From: an uncultured Roseovarius sp.
GTDB lineage: Bacteria; Pseudomonadota; Alphaproteobacteria; Rhodobacterales; Rhodobacteraceae
Assembly (NCBI GenBank): GCA_951812895.1
Contig: OX638333.1
Span: 3,514,001 to 3,578,000 of the forward strand
DNA: 64,000 nucleotides
Direction of reading: 5' to 3'
In this document: piece by piece, positions 35,102 to 41,399 of the stretch
Layout: the number at the start of each line of letters is the position of its first letter
Position numbering within the stretch: position 1 is the stretch's first letter
Position numbers and translations under genes: made by a program
The notes under the pieces: generated by a model
The model's database searches: none
What the model was told of the DNA's origin: nothing
The model's input: the letters and a program-made list of their open reading frames with translations, nothing else

Positions 35102-35318
35102 CCGTTTTCCTTTCATCGAGCCGGGTGAAGTCGCTGTAACATTTGTTCGGTATCCGGGCCAGCAATGCGACGAAGATTGTTACAGTATTAGAGTTTTCCT
35201 TGCAAATTTCCCCACTCAATGATCGCGAACGATCACGGGTGCGTTTGCCGGATTGTAGCGGGGCAATGGATACACGATCTGATAGTTGATCAAGTTTTTC
35301 AAAACCGGAGTGAATCTC

Positions 35319-35831
35319 ATGGCTGATATTGCTAATTTTGGTGGGCAAGCTGTTTACGGGCAGGCGGATAAGATGAAATCTGCCCTTTTGGCGTTTTTTA
35401 CCGCAGGGGCGGCTGCGTTCCTTGCCTTCGACTTTTTCGGGCAGGTTCTTTCGCCGATGCTTGGCTATGCAAAACTGGCTCCTGTTGGGCTGGCCAACAG
35501 CACAATCAAGGCCGTTTTTGGTGCGGGGTACCGCCCGGGTGCTGAAGCGTTGCATTTTATGGCCGGATTGCTGGCCTATCCGTTGGGATGGCTGTTGATT
35601 GCCGAGCCGCTGCGCCGTCGGGTACTGCCCGCGTTCCCATGGTTGGTGTCCGCAATCATCTACGGGGTCATCCTGTGGGTATTTGCCCTGTATGTGATGG
35701 CCCATCTGGTCGCAGGAATGAAGCCATTCCTGGGTTGGGGCGGGATCACTTGGGTGGCGCTGTGGGGTCATGTTATCTATGCGGTTGTGTTTGCGGCGGT
35801 TTGGCGACTGCGTAGTGAAAAGAACACCTGA
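35319..35831 (+). CDS. Integral membrane protein of unknown function
   Basis: A 170-residue protein with about four hydrophobic spans (around residues 20-42, 75-98, 105-130 and 140-160), starting at ATG 35319 behind an accggag ribosome site. It lies on the plus strand between ilvN and ilvB, both on the minus strand, and ends in a strong terminator. No family is recognised with confidence. Confidence 0.75.
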   Translation: MADIANFGGQAVYGQADKMKSALLAFFTAGAAAFLAFDFFGQVLSPMLGYAKLAPVGLANSTIKAVFGAGYRPGAEALHFMAGLLAYPLGWLLIAEPLRRRVLPAFPWLVSAIIYGVILWVFALYVMAHLVAGMKPFLGWGGITWVALWGHVIYAVVFAAVWRLRSEKNT

Positions 35832-35854
35832 CAATAAGGTCTGTTTGCTGCTTT

Positions 35855-35888
35855 GACGCGCCCCAATGCCGGGCGCGTCATTTTTTTT
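35855..35888 (+). terminator. Rho-independent terminator
   Basis: Perfect 9-bp stem gacgcgccc (35855-35863) and gggcgcgtc (35871-35879), then eight T (35881-35888). It ends the plus-strand membrane-protein gene and lies 12 bp beyond the ilvB stop on the other strand. Confidence 0.92.
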
Positions 35889-35900
35889 GAGCGTTGAAAG

Positions 35901-37655
35901 TCAGACCAATACAGCGCCTTTTGAGCCAATCGCATCCGAAGTGGACGCTTCACCCAACAGCATCTTGTTATGGGGCTCGCCTGACGGGATCATCGGGAAA
36001 CAGTTTTCATGCTTCTCGACAAGACAATCGAACAGGACGGGACCGTCGTGATTGATCATATCCATAATCGCATCATCCAGATCCGCGGGGTCCGAACAAA
36101 GGATACCCTTTGCGCCGAAGGCTTCGGCCAGCTTTACAAAATCCGGTAGCGCCTCTGACCAGCTATGAGAATAACGCTCTCCATGCAAAAGCTCTTGCCA
36201 CTGGCGAACCATGCCGAGGCGCTCGTTGTTCAAGATGAACTGCTTCACTGGCAGGCGATACTGAGCGGCGGTGCCCAGCTCCTGCATATTCATCAGCCAC
36301 GAGGCTTCACCTGCGACGTTCACAACCAGTGCTTCTGGATGGGCAATCTGGACCCCGATGGAAGCAGGAAAGCCATACCCCATTGTACCCAGTCCACCCG
36401 ACGTCATCCAGCGGTGTGGGTCATTAAAGCCCAGATACTGCGCCGCCCACATCTGGTGTTGGCCCACTTCGGTACAAATATAGCGATCGTGCTCTTTGGT
36501 CAGCGCTTCAAGACGAGCCAATGCGTGTTGCGGGCGGATGGTTTTGCCGCTTTGTTCGAACGACAGACAATCAATTGTCTTCCAGCCTTCAATCTTCGCC
36601 CACCACTTTTGCAAGCCTTCACGATTGATCTTGCGCCCGCGTGATTTCCATACTTTGAGGATATCTTCCAGGACGTGAGCAACATCACCTACGATCGGGA
36701 TATCGGTTTTGATCACTTTGTTGATCGAAGAAGGATCGATATCGACATGTGCTTTGGTTGAATGTGGACTGAACGCATCAACACGGCCGGTAATACGGTC
36801 ATCAAACCGCGCACCGATGTTGATCATCAAGTCACAATCATGCATCGCCATATTGGCCTCGTAAAGGCCGTGCATGCCCAGCATGCCAATCCATCTGTCA
36901 CCATTGGCCGGATAGGCGCCCAAACCCATTAGTGTGGAGGTGATTGGCGCGCCGGTGGCCTCTACCAGCTCTCGCAAAAGCTGGCTTGCCGCGGCGCCTG
37001 AATTGATTACGCCACCACCTGTGTAAAACAATGGTCGTTCAGCTTTTTCCAGAGCTTCGACCAGTTCTGTGATCGCCTCCATATCGCCTTTGACCTGTGG
37101 CTGATAATGCGAAACACGTGCTTTGGCCGGTGGTGTGTAATGTGCACTGGCGAACTGAACATCCTTGGGAATGTCAACAAGAACGGGGCCGGGACGGCCA
37201 GTAGTGGCCACATGAAAGGCTTGGTGAATAACATCCGACAGATCGCCGGTGTCGCTCACCAGCCAGTTATGTTTGGTGCAGGGGCGGGTGATACCTACGG
37301 TGTCGGCTTCCTGAAAGGCGTCATTTCCGATCATGAATGTCGGGACCTGACCTGTCAGGACAACAATTGGGATCGAATCCATCAACGCATCTGTGATGCC
37401 GGTAACCGCGTTGGTGGCGCCCGGGCCGGATGTTACCAGAACAACGCCGGGTTTGCCTGTGGAGCGTGCGTAGCCTTCGGCTGCATGAACCGCACCCTGT
37501 TCATGGCGTACGAGGATGTGGCGGATATCATTTTGCTGAAAGATTTCATCGTAAATCGGTAGCACAGCACCGCCAGGGTATCCGAATACGACGTCCACGC
37601 CCTGATCCTTGAGGGCCTGAACTACCATTTTCGCTCCTGTCATCTGACGTGTCAT
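35901..37655 (-). CDS. ilvB: Acetolactate synthase catalytic (large) subunit
   Basis: A 584-residue thiamine-diphosphate enzyme that makes acetolactate or acetohydroxybutyrate, the first common step of branched-chain amino acid synthesis. Seen are the N-terminal FGYPGGAVLPIYD, the catalytic glutamate in RHEQGAVHAAEGYA, the FAD region around GLGAYPANG, and LNNERLGMVRQW. The usual GDG/GDAS metal motif reads AGEASWLMN, a Glu in place of the Mg-binding Asp. Expression is very likely set by the attenuator at 37694-37792. Confidence 0.96.
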   Translation of the reverse strand: MTRQMTGAKMVVQALKDQGVDVVFGYPGGAVLPIYDEIFQQNDIRHILVRHEQGAVHAAEGYARSTGKPGVVLVTSGPGATNAVTGITDALMDSIPIVVLTGQVPTFMIGNDAFQEADTVGITRPCTKHNWLVSDTGDLSDVIHQAFHVATTGRPGPVLVDIPKDVQFASAHYTPPAKARVSHYQPQVKGDMEAITELVEALEKAERPLFYTGGGVINSGAAASQLLRELVEATGAPITSTLMGLGAYPANGDRWIGMLGMHGLYEANMAMHDCDLMINIGARFDDRITGRVDAFSPHSTKAHVDIDPSSINKVIKTDIPIVGDVAHVLEDILKVWKSRGRKINREGLQKWWAKIEGWKTIDCLSFEQSGKTIRPQHALARLEALTKEHDRYICTEVGQHQMWAAQYLGFNDPHRWMTSGGLGTMGYGFPASIGVQIAHPEALVVNVAGEASWLMNMQELGTAAQYRLPVKQFILNNERLGMVRQWQELLHGERYSHSWSEALPDFVKLAEAFGAKGILCSDPADLDDAIMDMINHDGPVLFDCLVEKHENCFPMIPSGEPHNKMLLGEASTSDAIGSKGAVLV

Positions 37656-37693
37656 ATCTTTGCTCCGTTTTCGACGTCGTTTACATTACACAT

Positions 37694-37719
37694 AAAAAAG
37701 CCCCCGAAGTTTCGGGGGC
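37694..37719 (-). terminator. ilvB attenuator terminator
   Basis: On the minus strand gcccccgaa (37719-37711), a 2-nt centre, and ttcgggggc (37708-37700) form a near-perfect stem followed by six T (complement of 37699-37694). It lies between the leader peptide gene and ilvB. Confidence 0.9.
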
Positions 37720-37761
37720 GCATGGGGTACCATCAGGGTGTCCGTTACCGGCCCATGCGCC
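37717..37761 (-). promoter_or_regulatory. ilvB antiterminator pairing
   Basis: The minus-strand segment ggcgcatggg at 37761-37752, inside the last leader codons, is exactly complementary to cccatgcgcc at 37726-37717. The second arm covers the first bases of the terminator's 5' arm, so the two structures exclude each other: a ribosome stalled early leaves the antiterminator free to form, one reaching the leader stop hides its first arm. Confidence 0.82.
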
Positions 37762-37792
37762 ATTTACCTACGATGACCACTAGCGTTTCCAC
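37745..37792 (-). CDS. ilvB leader peptide
   Basis: A 15-residue reading frame METLVVIVGKWRMGR starting at GTG 37792 and ending TAA. Five consecutive codons are Leu-Val-Val-Ile-Val, the amino acids made by the pathway. A strong aaaggag ribosome site (37807-37801) lies 8 nt upstream. Together with the promoter, antiterminator and terminator this is a classical translation-coupled attenuator that senses charged branched-chain tRNAs. Confidence 0.88.
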   Translation of the reverse strand: METLVVIVGKWRMGR

Positions 37793-37821
37793 GCGGGTGA
37801 CTCCTTTGCTGCGTTCGCGAA

Positions 37822-37850
37822 TTCTTATGGAGACAGACAAGGGGCGTCAA
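37822..37850 (-). promoter_or_regulatory. Sigma-70-type promoter of the ilvB leader
   Basis: On the minus strand TTGACG (37850-37845) and TAAGAA (37827-37822) are separated by 17 bp. Transcription would start a few bases before the leader ribosome site at 37807. Confidence 0.75.
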
Positions 37851-38020: not shown

Positions 38021-38668
38021 CTACAAGTGTCGCCCAGTTCCCTGCAGAACGCCATGTTCCATTGCATAACGGGTTAACCCGGCTGTGGAGCTGATACCCA
38101 GCTTTCGCTTAATGTTCTTGCGATGCGTTTCTACGGTGCGGATCGAGATATCCAGCTCTTCGGCGACATCACGGTTCGATTTGCCCTGAGCCAACTGTAA
38201 CAGGATGGTCTGTTCGCGATTGGTTAGCTGTTCGCGCTCGTTATCATCACGTGGCTTCAGAGAGCCTTGCGCGCCTGTGCACAGATACTTTTCGCCGGCC
38301 ATAACTACATCAACAGCGCGCTTAATTTCTTCGGTGGGCACGTCTTTGAGCACGTAGCCCATCGCACCATGGCTAAGGGCAGAGGAAATGTATTCAGGGC
38401 TGTCATGCATGCTCAAAATCAAAATCCGCGTGTTTGGCCTGCGTTCCAGAACGATTTCAGCGGTTGATAGGCCGCCGATCCCCGGCATGTTCAGATCAAG
38501 CAGGATTACGTCAGGGGCAAGATTTTCAACCTGATCAATAATGTCCTGACCATTGGACATCGTGGCGATAACCTGTACATCGTCGTAACTTTCCAGAATG
38601 GATTGAATGCCTTCTGCGACCATCGGGTGATCATCGACGATCACTATGCGGGTAGTGCGTTTGGTCAT
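38021..38668 (-). CDS. NarL/FixJ-type response regulator
   Basis: A 215-residue regulator with an N-terminal receiver domain (VDDHPMVAEG; phosphoacceptor Asp58 in VILLDLNMPG; Lys in YVLKD) and a C-terminal LuxR-type HTH (LTNREQTILLQLAQGKSNRDVAEEL...TVETHRKNIKRKL). Its start overlaps the sensor kinase stop (ATGA). With that kinase it forms a two-component system next to a TRAP transporter operon, which it probably controls. Confidence 0.93.
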   Translation of the reverse strand: MTKRTTRIVIVDDHPMVAEGIQSILESYDDVQVIATMSNGQDIIDQVENLAPDVILLDLNMPGIGGLSTAEIVLERRPNTRILILSMHDSPEYISSALSHGAMGYVLKDVPTEEIKRAVDVVMAGEKYLCTGAQGSLKPRDDNEREQLTNREQTILLQLAQGKSNRDVAEELDISIRTVETHRKNIKRKLGISSTAGLTRYAMEHGVLQGTGRHL

Positions 38669-40089
38669 GCGCTTGCTTTCTTGTCTGGCTGCGACTGATC
38701 CTGTGGCGGAAGTAGGTGTGTCAGTGGAACAGTGGCCTCAATCACAGTGCCGGACCGGGTTGAGAGAATGCGCAGCACCCCGTCGAGCTGTTCAATGCGT
38801 TCCTGCATATTTCGTAGACCCAGCCCACTCGCCGGAGTATTGGATTGCGTCTGATCCAAACCTTTACCGTTGTCGGTGATACGCAGTGTTGCGCCACGGC
38901 TATGGCCTCGCACATCGATTGAAACATGAGTTGCACCAGAGTGTCGCTCGACATTGGTCAATGCCTCTTGGGCGACGCGGAAAAGCGCCGTTTTTGCGTT
39001 ATCGTCCAGCCGATTGCGAAAGACGACGGTTTCAAATTCAGTCTCTATTCCGGTTCGGCCGCCAAATTCCTCTATAAGTGTTTTCAAAGCGGGCCCCAGA
39101 CCAAGATCATCCAGAACACCAGGACGAAGATCGCGGCTGATCCGGCGGACCTCTTGTATGGCCCCTGACAGATGTTCAATTCCGATGTCGAGATTTTCTG
39201 ATGCGCGGGTGTCCCCCGAAGACAATCGCCGTCGGGCAGTGTCTAACGCATAACGAACGCCAACCAGGATCTGGCTGATCCCATCATGCAGTTCACGGGC
39301 TACTCGCCCGCGTTCTTCTTCCTGCGCATCGAAAACCCGTTGGGTCAGCTTCTTCAGCTTGGCATCGGCCAATCTTCGTTCGCGGATGTTGATAAAAAGG
39401 CCGGAGGTGAAGACCAACAACAATGCTGCGAGGGTGATGCCGCCGATCCATAGAAATGTTCGCCTGTTTCGGGCCTCGACCCCGGCCCGGGCTGCATTGA
39501 CGGTACTGGCCACATCATCAATGAAAACTCCGGTGCCAACTGCCCAACGCCAATCCTGCAGGCCGATCACGTAGGTGACCATATGCGCCTTTTGCCCGGT
39601 GCTTGGCTTTGTCCATTCATAGCTGTGATATCCACCGCCGGTGCGCGCCAGTCGGATCAGTTCATCCGTGACATCAACGCCAGCAGCATCTGTCATGCCG
39701 ACCCAATTGCGCCCAATCAGGTCGGTCTGGCGCGGGCTGACAATGTTGTTGCCCTCATAATCATAGACAAAGAAATACCCATCTTGACCATAAAGCATCG
39801 CGGAAAGAATCTGTGTAACCGAAAGCATCGCGCTCTCATCATCCGGCGCGGCACGGCCGTAAATGTTCACGAAAGCGGTTCTTGCGATTGAAAGATAGTT
39901 TTTCAGCTCTGCCTGCTTGGCTGCAATCAACTGCTCTTCCAGATATCGTATTTCCCGTTCGGCCGATTGTCTGGACTGGAGTGCGACCAGAACAGAAATC
40001 GCGACTGCCGCAAATATCAGCGGTAGCGTTGCTGTCAAAAACAGCTTTTGACCATAGTTCAGTCGCGGTCTGTACCTCAATAGCGGCAT
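38665..40089 (-). CDS. Cache-domain sensor histidine kinase
   Basis: A 474-residue kinase with an N-terminal membrane span (about residues 13-35), a periplasmic Cache-like sensing domain (about 40-225, with GQDGYFFVYDYEGNNIVSPRQ), a second span (about 235-255), a HisKA_3 dimerisation helix with the phosphoacceptor in VARELHDGISQ and a HATPase domain (RVAQEALTNVERHSGA, DNGKGLD, GLGLRNMQER). ATG 40089 is preferred; the open frame upstream runs into the regulatory region. It is divergent from dctP, 227 bp away, which suggests it senses the TRAP substrate. Confidence 0.9.
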   Translation of the reverse strand: MPLLRYRPRLNYGQKLFLTATLPLIFAAVAISVLVALQSRQSAEREIRYLEEQLIAAKQAELKNYLSIARTAFVNIYGRAAPDDESAMLSVTQILSAMLYGQDGYFFVYDYEGNNIVSPRQTDLIGRNWVGMTDAAGVDVTDELIRLARTGGGYHSYEWTKPSTGQKAHMVTYVIGLQDWRWAVGTGVFIDDVASTVNAARAGVEARNRRTFLWIGGITLAALLLVFTSGLFINIRERRLADAKLKKLTQRVFDAQEEERGRVARELHDGISQILVGVRYALDTARRRLSSGDTRASENLDIGIEHLSGAIQEVRRISRDLRPGVLDDLGLGPALKTLIEEFGGRTGIETEFETVVFRNRLDDNAKTALFRVAQEALTNVERHSGATHVSIDVRGHSRGATLRITDNGKGLDQTQSNTPASGLGLRNMQERIEQLDGVLRILSTRSGTVIEATVPLTHLLPPQDQSQPDKKASA

Positions 40090-40316
40090 GTCGAATCGAT
40101 AGTTCGAATCGCATGGAATTCCCAGCAAATTACGTTCTTTTCGAACTTTGGACGTGTGTCTGTTGTCAAAAACTGCCTCGTGAGCGGGCTTTCTACGCAG
40201 TACTCGGTATTCCCAAAGACCGGTGGTGGCGCTAGGGTTTTCGCACTTGAAACGATCCGCACAAGGGCGGCCACGGCTGTTTTTGCGCATTCAATGACTT
40301 TGGGAGGAGAATCCAT

Positions 40317-41399
40317 ATGGATCGTCGTTCATTTCTAAAAAATACAGCACTGGGCGGTACGGCAGCTGCGGCGACAACGCTGGCGGCGCCGGCTTATGCA
40401 CAGGGCAAGCGCACGCTGACCATGGTGACCAGTTGGGGCCGTGGTTTGGCAGGTGTTTTCGACGCCGCGCAGCGCGTTGCTGATAACATCAATGCCATGT
40501 CAGACGGTAGCCTGACGATCGAAGTCAAAGCCGCTGGCGAGCTTGTCGGAGCTTTCGAGGTCTTTGACGCTGTTACGGCTGGGCAGGCGGATATGTATCA
40601 CGCGGCCGACTATTACTTTGTCAGTCAACATCCCGGTTATGCCTTCTTTACGGGCGTTCCCTTCGGCATGACCGCGACAGAGCTGAACAACTGGTACTAC
40701 CACGGCAATGGTCGGGCGATGCATGACCAACTGGGCGAGATTTTTGGTCTTAAATCCTTCCTCGCCGGGAATACCGGCACGCAGGCTGGTGGCTGGTTTG
40801 CCAAGGAAATTAAGGGTCCAGAAGATTTCAACGGTCTGAAATTCCGGATGCCCGGTCTGGGCGGCAAAGCGCTTGGCAACATGGGCGCGTCGGTTCAAAA
40901 TCTGCCGGGCGCGGAAGTGTATCAAGCGCTTGCGTCAGGTGCGATTGACGGCACTGAATGGATCGGGCCTTGGGCAGATGAAAAGGCTGGTTTCCAGGAA
41001 ATCACCAAGTTCTACTATACAGCCGGTTTCCATGAGCCATCTGCAGGTCTGTCGGTTGCAACCAACCTTGATACGTTCAATGAACTGACGCCTTCACAGC
41101 AAGCGACTATTGAGATTGCTGCCGGACATGCAAACGTCTGGAACCTCAGCCAGTTCCTCATGAACAACGGTGCAGCGCTTGAGCGTCTGAAAGCCGGTGG
41201 TGTTCAGGTTCTCGAATTCCCGGACAGTGTTTGGGATGCGATGGGCGCGGCCAGCCAGCAAGTCTATGACGAGTTCTCGGACGACGAACTGTTCTCGGAG
41301 ATCCTCGCTGACTATCGCGGGTCGATGAAAGCGTCTTCGGGTTGGCTGAGCCAGTCAATCGGTGCGTATCGTACGCAACGTGACCGCGTGCTTGGGTAA
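40317..41399 (+). CDS. dctP: TRAP transporter substrate-binding protein (TakP-like)
   Basis: A 360-residue periplasmic protein with a Tat-type signal (DRRSFLKNTALGG, then an Ala-rich stretch ending APAYA before QGKR). The mature part shows LKFRMPGLGGKAL, with the carboxylate-binding arginine, and GAIDGTEWIGPWADEK, like TakP of Rhodobacter sphaeroides, which binds 2-oxoacids. A strong gggaggag ribosome site precedes ATG 40317. It heads a dctPQM operon; the ligand is probably an organic acid. Confidence 0.93.
   Translation: MDRRSFLKNTALGGTAAAATTLAAPAYAQGKRTLTMVTSWGRGLAGVFDAAQRVADNINAMSDGSLTIEVKAAGELVGAFEVFDAVTAGQADMYHAADYYFVSQHPGYAFFTGVPFGMTATELNNWYYHGNGRAMHDQLGEIFGLKSFLAGNTGTQAGGWFAKEIKGPEDFNGLKFRMPGLGGKALGNMGASVQNLPGAEVYQALASGAIDGTEWIGPWADEKAGFQEITKFYYTAGFHEPSAGLSVATNLDTFNELTPSQQATIEIAAGHANVWNLSQFLMNNGAALERLKAGGVQVLEFPDSVWDAMGAASQQVYDEFSDDELFSEILADYRGSMKASSGWLSQSIGAYRTQRDRVLG

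Follow-up and report, generated by a model that had tools for sequence, protein, structure and literature searches.

A conserved leader-peptide element upstream of ilvB in Roseovarius, very probably a transcription attenuator, and its relatives upstream of transporter genes in Alphaproteobacteria

The window analyzed here is a 64,000-nt stretch of the genome of an uncultured Roseovarius sp. On its minus strand lies an ORF (35901–37655, start at 37655, 584 aa) that we take, following an earlier reading, to be ilvB, encoding the large subunit of acetolactate synthase, an enzyme of the synthesis of branched-chain amino acids. Its protein gave a single full-length match in the window's own genome and in relatives. 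Upstream of ilvB, within 38021–41399, are genes presumably encoding a LuxR-type response regulator and a sensor-kinase-like protein on the same strand, and an ORF resembling a TRAP-type substrate-binding protein starts at 40317 on the opposite strand.

The region immediately upstream of ilvB holds a compact series of elements on the minus strand. A −35 box, TTGACG (37850–37845), is separated by 17 nt from a −10 region, TAAGAA (37827–37822), and is followed by a ribosome binding site, AAAGGAG (37807–37801), and a leader ORF, METLVVIVGKWRMGR (37792–37745), with a GTG start and a TAA stop, all read directly in the sequence. Translation of the leader is predicted. It contains five consecutive putative sensor codons, CTA GTG GTC ATC GTA, encoding Leu Val Val Ile Val (37783–37769). 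The last leader codons include the antiterminator 5′ arm, GGCGCATGGG (37761–37752), and the 3′ arm, CCCATGCGCC (37726–37717), is its exact complement. Between leader and ilvB lies an intrinsic terminator, with a stem-loop, GCCCCCGAAACTTCGGGGGC, at 37719–37700 and a U-tract of six T at 37699–37694, which was also picked up independently by a terminator scan. A preliminary description of this DNA had listed the promoter, the ribosome site, the five-codon run and the six-T terminator, and each was recovered in its place. It had also described an exact 10-bp antiterminator pairing between the leader end and the terminator 5′ arm; the pairing is indeed exact, but the two structures have in common only the first 3 nt of the terminator (37719–37717), the remaining 7 of the 10 pairs being formed upstream of it. 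Two parts absent from that description are a mini-hairpin, CCG-GUAA-CGG (37742–37751), whose GNRA loop holds the stop codon, and a second small hairpin within the antiterminator, ACC-CUGAU-GGU (37729–37739), which is predicted for the window and whose sequence differs among relatives.

Conservation was assessed at 110 ilvB loci, namely the best 80 named matches listed and 30 loci from 149 genomes of the family (window's genome included). A leader and a terminator were found by script in 97 of the 110 upstream regions. The script found no such combination in the other 13 (L037, L057, L069, L073, L074, L078, L079, L081, L082, L083, L086, L087, L088); the L037 region is a contig end, and in L057 the arms and terminator are visible and the sensor run is poor. 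The alignment used below, A1, has the 92 rows left of these 97 once L055, L060, L068 and L084 (divergent or doubtful) and L092 (a duplicate of L075) were omitted. L055 and L060 have a different arm sequence with pairing retained by eye, and stand outside the counts. An ilvB homologue lies downstream of the element in the window and at all 92 aligned loci, which were fetched by ilvB. A covariance model built from the aligned ilvB elements (R1, match cut-off E ≤ 0.01) matched 263 of 292 genomes of the order, representing 107 of 112 genera. In the window's own genome R1 gave one strong match, of 99.2 bits, and three weak ones (26.9 bits or less). The second of these matches (L125, 26.9 bits, E 0.019) was rejected as a further element: it is a terminator-like stretch only, beside genes that presumably encode ribosomal proteins.

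Among 20 listed of the 29 non-matching genomes, 12 belong to one genus (g24), which is taken to be Paracoccus only because three named Paracoccus loci are without the element. At those three loci (L069, L073, L074) no leader or terminator was found before ilvB, and a TTGACC promoter-like box is kept. The element thus appears to be dispensable, judging by these three loci and the 12 listed g24 genomes. At three loci from other Alphaproteobacteria (L079, L082, L088), short Leu/Ile/Val-rich ORFs of different sequence, such as MRFILIVSGAPSTDV and MRKLILVEVRW (each followed by a stop), precede ilvB with terminators of their own.

Comparison among relatives also bears on the promoter. Within the region, promoter-like sites are as frequent as in shuffled sequence (3 versus 2.7), and TAAGAA is a weak −10 box. 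Nevertheless, 90 of 92 relatives have TTGAC at a distance of 20–90 nt before the leader start (shuffling predicts 5.7%), and the hexamer 17 nt past it is TAATGT in 31 of these 90, with T, A and T dominating positions 1, 2 and 6. It is this comparison that rescues the promoter call.

The 92 aligned leaders form a conserved family of the form M-x-x-[LVI]5-G-x-x-RMGR-stop. End-product codons cluster at a fixed place in it: Leu, Ile or Val is found at codons −12, −11, −10, −9 and −8 before the stop in 92, 99, 92, 92 and 93% of leaders, respectively, and at neighboring positions in at most 16%. All five positions carry one of the three residues in 71 of 92 leaders and at least four do so in 88, and both the choice among Leu, Ile and Val and the codon used vary. 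The start codon is at −15 in 85 of 92, and a loose SD-like motif precedes the start in all 92, such a motif having been one criterion for choosing the start. Stop codons are TAA (71), TGA (16) and TAG (5), and the RMGR-stop end is nearly fixed in DNA, mostly as CGC ATG GGC CGG TAA. Codon usage in the leaders is strongly skewed relative to the ilvB genes of the same loci and to 23 long ORFs of the window, in pooled tests that count related leaders as independent. GTA accounts for 128 of 257 leader Val codons, versus 4.3% and 10.1% in the two backgrounds, and CTA for 50 of 124 Leu codons, versus 1.7% and 4.0%. GGA, a non-sensor codon, is enriched to a similar degree (51 of 73 Gly codons, versus 5.7% and 12.7%), and part of the bias may therefore reflect avoidance of structure. 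CUA is described as the most suitable Leu control codon in E. coli, with support from experiments in Salmonella, in one report (PMC1183508).

Both stems are retained across the alignment. The antiterminator (A1 columns 32–41 with 73–82) and mini-hairpin (42–44 with 51–53) together have 92.8% of cells paired over the 92 rows, and slid versions reach at most 51.9%; for the terminator the values are 94.4% and at most 64.1%. Six pairs of the antiterminator and mini-hairpin show changes on both sides (10 cells, versus 0.9 in shuffles), an excess that relatedness can also yield. Arm letters have changed with pairing retained, as in L030, where CAC faces GTG, and by sequence comparison the stems carry compensatory changes. 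Three intact base pairs of the mini-hairpin are present in 82 of 92 sequences, with both-side changes at all three, and the loop reads GUAA in 66 sequences and GUGA in 11, so that the stop codon lies within a GNRA loop in 77 of 92. The outermost antiterminator pair (32–82) is formed in 49 of 92, and pairs 33–81 and 34–80 in all 92; the overlap with the terminator, 3 nt in the window, is 2 nt in 43 of 92. RNAalifold applied to A1 returned the terminator and two other pairs and did not return the antiterminator, which overlaps the terminator. A protector (1:2) stem was found in 51 of 92 sequences versus 240 of 460 shuffles, no excess, and this agrees with the two-structure switch of the preliminary description. 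That description had read the locus as branched-chain attenuation and had proposed aligning the region upstream of ilvB in relatives as a check; the retention of leader codons and stems, together with the compensatory changes, supports its reading.

Predicted folds were compared with the 5′ arm free and masked. When the arm is left free, 79 of 92 folds have it bound to the 3′ arm through at least 7 of its 11 bases (152 of 920 with shuffled arms), and the minimum-energy fold still pairs the terminator's closing base in 79 of 92. When the RNA is masked through the stop codon plus 10 nt, every base of the terminator 3′ arm is paired in 91 of 92. For the window, the full antiterminator with a 5-bp terminator stub is predicted at −31.9 kcal/mol, and a 7-bp antiterminator with the full terminator at −33.4 kcal/mol, better by 1.5 kcal/mol. 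Because the predicted equilibrium fold keeps the terminator with the arm free and so shows no full switch, switching would have to depend on both the order and the timing of folding and on the closing pairs. The energy closing the last 3 nt of the terminator is, for the window, −9.87 kcal/mol when the arm is masked and −1.65 when it is free; means over the 92 sequences are −9.13 masked, −3.46 free and −6.66 with shuffled arms, which alone cost a mean of 2.5 kcal/mol. The difference exceeds 1 kcal/mol in 91 of 92, L040 going in the opposite direction (−1.2). As computed closing energy drops when the arm is free, the antiterminator most likely weakens termination by stealing the terminator's closing pairs.

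Considering the parts and their conservation, the position and bias of the sensor codons, the covariation and the computed loss of closing energy, the window element very probably controls ilvB by ribosome-mediated transcription attenuation, with charged Leu-, Val- and Ile-tRNA as the signal. We infer the following course of events in the cell, from where the ribosome stands and stalls to antitermination and regulation. When branched-chain amino acids are ample, the ribosome would read to the leader stop and cover the 5′ arm and the stop-codon hairpin; the full 8-bp terminator would close and transcription would stop before ilvB. A shortage of charged Leu-, Val- or Ile-tRNA would stall the ribosome at codons 4–8 and leave the arm free to pair with CCCATGCGCC as a branched antiterminator. 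This structure would not dissolve the terminator; it would take the 2–3 bases of the closing foot beside the U-tract, giving read-through into ilvB. By the standard footprint, a ribosome whose A site holds one of codons 4–7 reaches up to the arm without covering it, and one at the stop codon covers the arm and mini-hairpin; with codon 8 in the A site, about 3 nt of the arm would already be hidden, which counts against the model. Since no protector stem was seen beyond shuffles, an untranslated leader should read through. Such a design would be unusually economical, with the ribosome controlling transcription through 2–3 bp at the foot of the terminator.

Other readings of the same parts were weighed. 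The nearly invariant RMGR-stop end would suit a leader peptide, or a short terminated RNA, that acts mainly elsewhere in the cell and not in cis, and a rhizobial relative of the element, Atu_C8, is catalogued as an sRNA. A precedent is the tryptophan leader of Sinorhizobium, trpL: PMC10117765 reports that its leader peptide is functional and that its attenuator RNA has a dual function. We nevertheless think this improbable. Where RMGR codons change, their pairing partners change too (L030; L046, L051, L071, L103; L044), so RNA pairing explains the conservation; several leaders of the transporter-type elements described below end in RCMVR, RRLDR or RRPGR; and Leu, Ile and Val replace one another at the five sensor positions, a pattern that fits tRNA sensing better than a fixed peptide motif.

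The antiterminator-like stem might instead abut and stack on the terminator and aid termination, making the element constitutive or an inverse switch, and the predicted minimum-energy folds do hold a 7-bp antiterminator remnant and the full terminator together. To this we give a slimmer chance still. It predicts lower ilvB expression on starvation, contrary to biosynthetic control; the foot pairs 33–81 and 34–80, which compete with the terminator, are the ones kept in all 92 sequences; and the closing energy drops rather than grows when the arm is freed. A plain terminator accompanied by a chance or untranslated short ORF, with conservation arising from, for example, protein-binding RNA, is barely credible, given that the amino-acid class at the sensor positions is retained as codons and Leu/Ile/Val identity vary. 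Chance was further gauged by scanning the 64-kb window for composites of a ribosome site, an ORF of 8–30 codons and a perfect-stem terminator. The real window holds one, the ilvB element, in which five Leu/Val/Ile codons stand in a row and the complementary arm is 10 nt long. Across 150 Markov-random windows the mean was 0.013 composites per window, and no composite there had as many as 4 consecutive Leu/Ile/Val codons or an arm of 8 nt, so the ilvB composite is not attributable to chance.

The attenuator reading places the window element in an already known kind, the alphaproteobacterial ilvB leader attenuators, of which it is a well-supported and order-wide example. Branched-chain-amino-acid attenuators of ilvB and ilvIH in Alphaproteobacteria were reportedly described by Vitreschak et al. 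in 2004. They resemble the window element in gene, bacterial class and possession of a leader peptide, a likeness drawn through citing papers. The attenuators of leu, ilvBN and ilvGMEDA in E. coli and Salmonella likewise combine leader peptide, regulatory codons, terminator and antiterminator. Enteric attenuators have a larger antiterminator/terminator overlap and a protector stem, unlike the window element, with its overlap of 2–3 nt and no protector seen beyond shuffles. Among the citing papers, PMC1273637 places an alphaproteobacterial ilvB leader peptide in print by 2005, citing Vitreschak 2004, and PMC2573895 lists a cis-regulatory element of ilvIH in S. meliloti with the same reference. 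CUA control codons are a feature of the enteric leu leader, according to PMC1183508. The Corynebacterium ilvBNC attenuator, or ilvB-II motif, also has a leader uORF before ilvB (PMC11857589, PMC10272879); the likeness is by leader uORF only, in a lineage unrelated to that of the window.

No match at gathering score was found in the window among 4227 Rfam families. The list below cut-off for the element is headed by NsiR1 (25.9 bits), followed by Atu_C8 (RF02502, "Rhizobiales sRNA"), whose model is covered from end to end by 37684–37793 (24.7 bits, E 0.0033, below the gathering cut-off of 50). RF02502 and the window element have GCGCAUGGGC...CCCAUGCGC in common, although the former is catalogued as an sRNA gene and the latter is an ilvB leader. 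A strong Atu_C8 match, of 98.8 bits, in genome G255 (L118) contains a Val-rich leader ending in ...VSVVVGRRMGKAA before its stop and lies before a gene for a major facilitator superfamily (MFS) transporter; ilvB of that genome is on another contig. A weak match (32 bits) lies upstream of ilvB in G336, and those at L120 and L121 score below 30 bits. On this sequence evidence the Atu_C8 "sRNA" is probably an attenuator leader, and if so an Rfam sRNA family would be reinterpreted as a leader-peptide attenuator.

MFS genes also follow most matches to the element away from ilvB. R1 matched 16 of 337 genomes of the class: five belong to the family and adjoin ilvB, and the 11 outside it all precede an MFS gene, none having ilvB in the 1.5-kb flanks. 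Of four MFS proteins compared with the TIGR00710 Bcr/CflA cut-off, including the Atu_C8 neighbor, three pass and L137 falls 1 bit short. Among the matches listed, 12 Rhodobacteraceae genomes have two R1 matches; the higher-scoring one lies at ilvB in all 12, and in 11 an MFS gene of this kind follows the second. A covariance model of the MFS-type elements (R2) matched 19 of 387 class genomes, six in the family at ilvB (G076 by coordinates) and 13 outside it, two of them new. When the weak matches in the window's own genome are excluded, 24 of 25 R1 or R2 matches away from ilvB precede an MFS gene. L166 (30 bits) was rejected as a transporter-type element, neither ilvB nor an MFS gene following it.

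The transporter-type loci (L132–L142, L155–L165, L171, L172 and L118) carry the element at approximately positions 1440–1620, on the same strand as the MFS gene. Val occupies codons −8 to −11 in 16, 19, 16 and 11 of these 25 loci (L118 included), in ORFs that the script chose as the richest in Leu/Ile/Val; the sensor run is poor in L141, L142, L165 and L172. In 21 MFS-type elements 90.0% of cells are paired, versus at most 53.2% in slid versions, and no covariation beyond shuffles was found, so that pairing in this set is argued from the percentage paired and from homology. R2 scores the window element at 82.8 bits, and the ilvB and MFS types therefore look like one family by sequence.

The distribution of the transporter version is scattered. 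MFS homologues were collected from 28 class genomes at E ≤ 1e-80, and 19 of these are non-family genomes whose homologue is at least 50% identical. An R2 element lies just upstream in 13 of the 19, and in G255 the Atu_C8 element does (17.3 bits by R2); no element was found upstream of the homologue in G230, G616, G244, G646 and G807, nor upstream of the one in the window's own genome. Fourteen genomes outside the family have the transporter version. With strict filters, none of R1, R2 and Atu_C8 matched at their ilvB genes, and no leader of the module type was seen on reading the ilvB upstream regions. Those regions do include terminator-like stretches (L173, L174, L175, L178) and, at L177, a short ORF with several Leu/Ile codons, and other attenuators may operate there. 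In a tree of the MFS proteins, rows from Rhodobacteraceae and elsewhere are clustered and do not form one group each (four changes, at least two of them forced); one row only was without the attenuator, so the grouping of attenuator-bearing proteins is not readable from it.

We lean toward the view that a single homologous module, with Val/Ile/Leu sensors, a GNRA-held stop codon and an antiterminator that steals closing pairs, serves two genes unrelated to each other. One is ilvB, in most Rhodobacteraceae; the other is a Bcr/CflA-type MFS gene, preceded by the module in scattered other Alphaproteobacteria and, in some Rhodobacteraceae, by a second copy of it. On this view, the transporter would be switched on when charged Val-tRNA is short (or translation slowed), its substrate would be tied to branched-chain amino acids, and Atu_C8 would be, at least in part, its terminated leader. 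The module may have been captured by ilvB from the transporter, since the ilvB genes of the examined non-Rhodobacteraceae genomes with the transporter version gave no module match; the direction of transfer is nonetheless a guess, because the groups in the MFS tree are mixed and other attenuators are possible at those ilvB genes. If the view is correct, the regulation would hint at what is carried by a group of transporters whose only annotation is "efflux." Narrow word searches, with most subscription journals outside their coverage, returned no paper that describes an attenuator before a Bcr/CflA gene or interprets Atu_C8 as one.

At the window locus itself, ilvB and the gene that we take to be ilvN are separated by 785 nt (35117–35900), and the attenuator may be without control over ilvN. 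Within this gap lie a membrane-protein-like ORF on the opposite strand (35286–35831) and a strong plus-strand terminator (35854–35880). The corresponding gap is shorter than 120 nt in 68 of the 92 loci, out of 110, in which ilvN was found.
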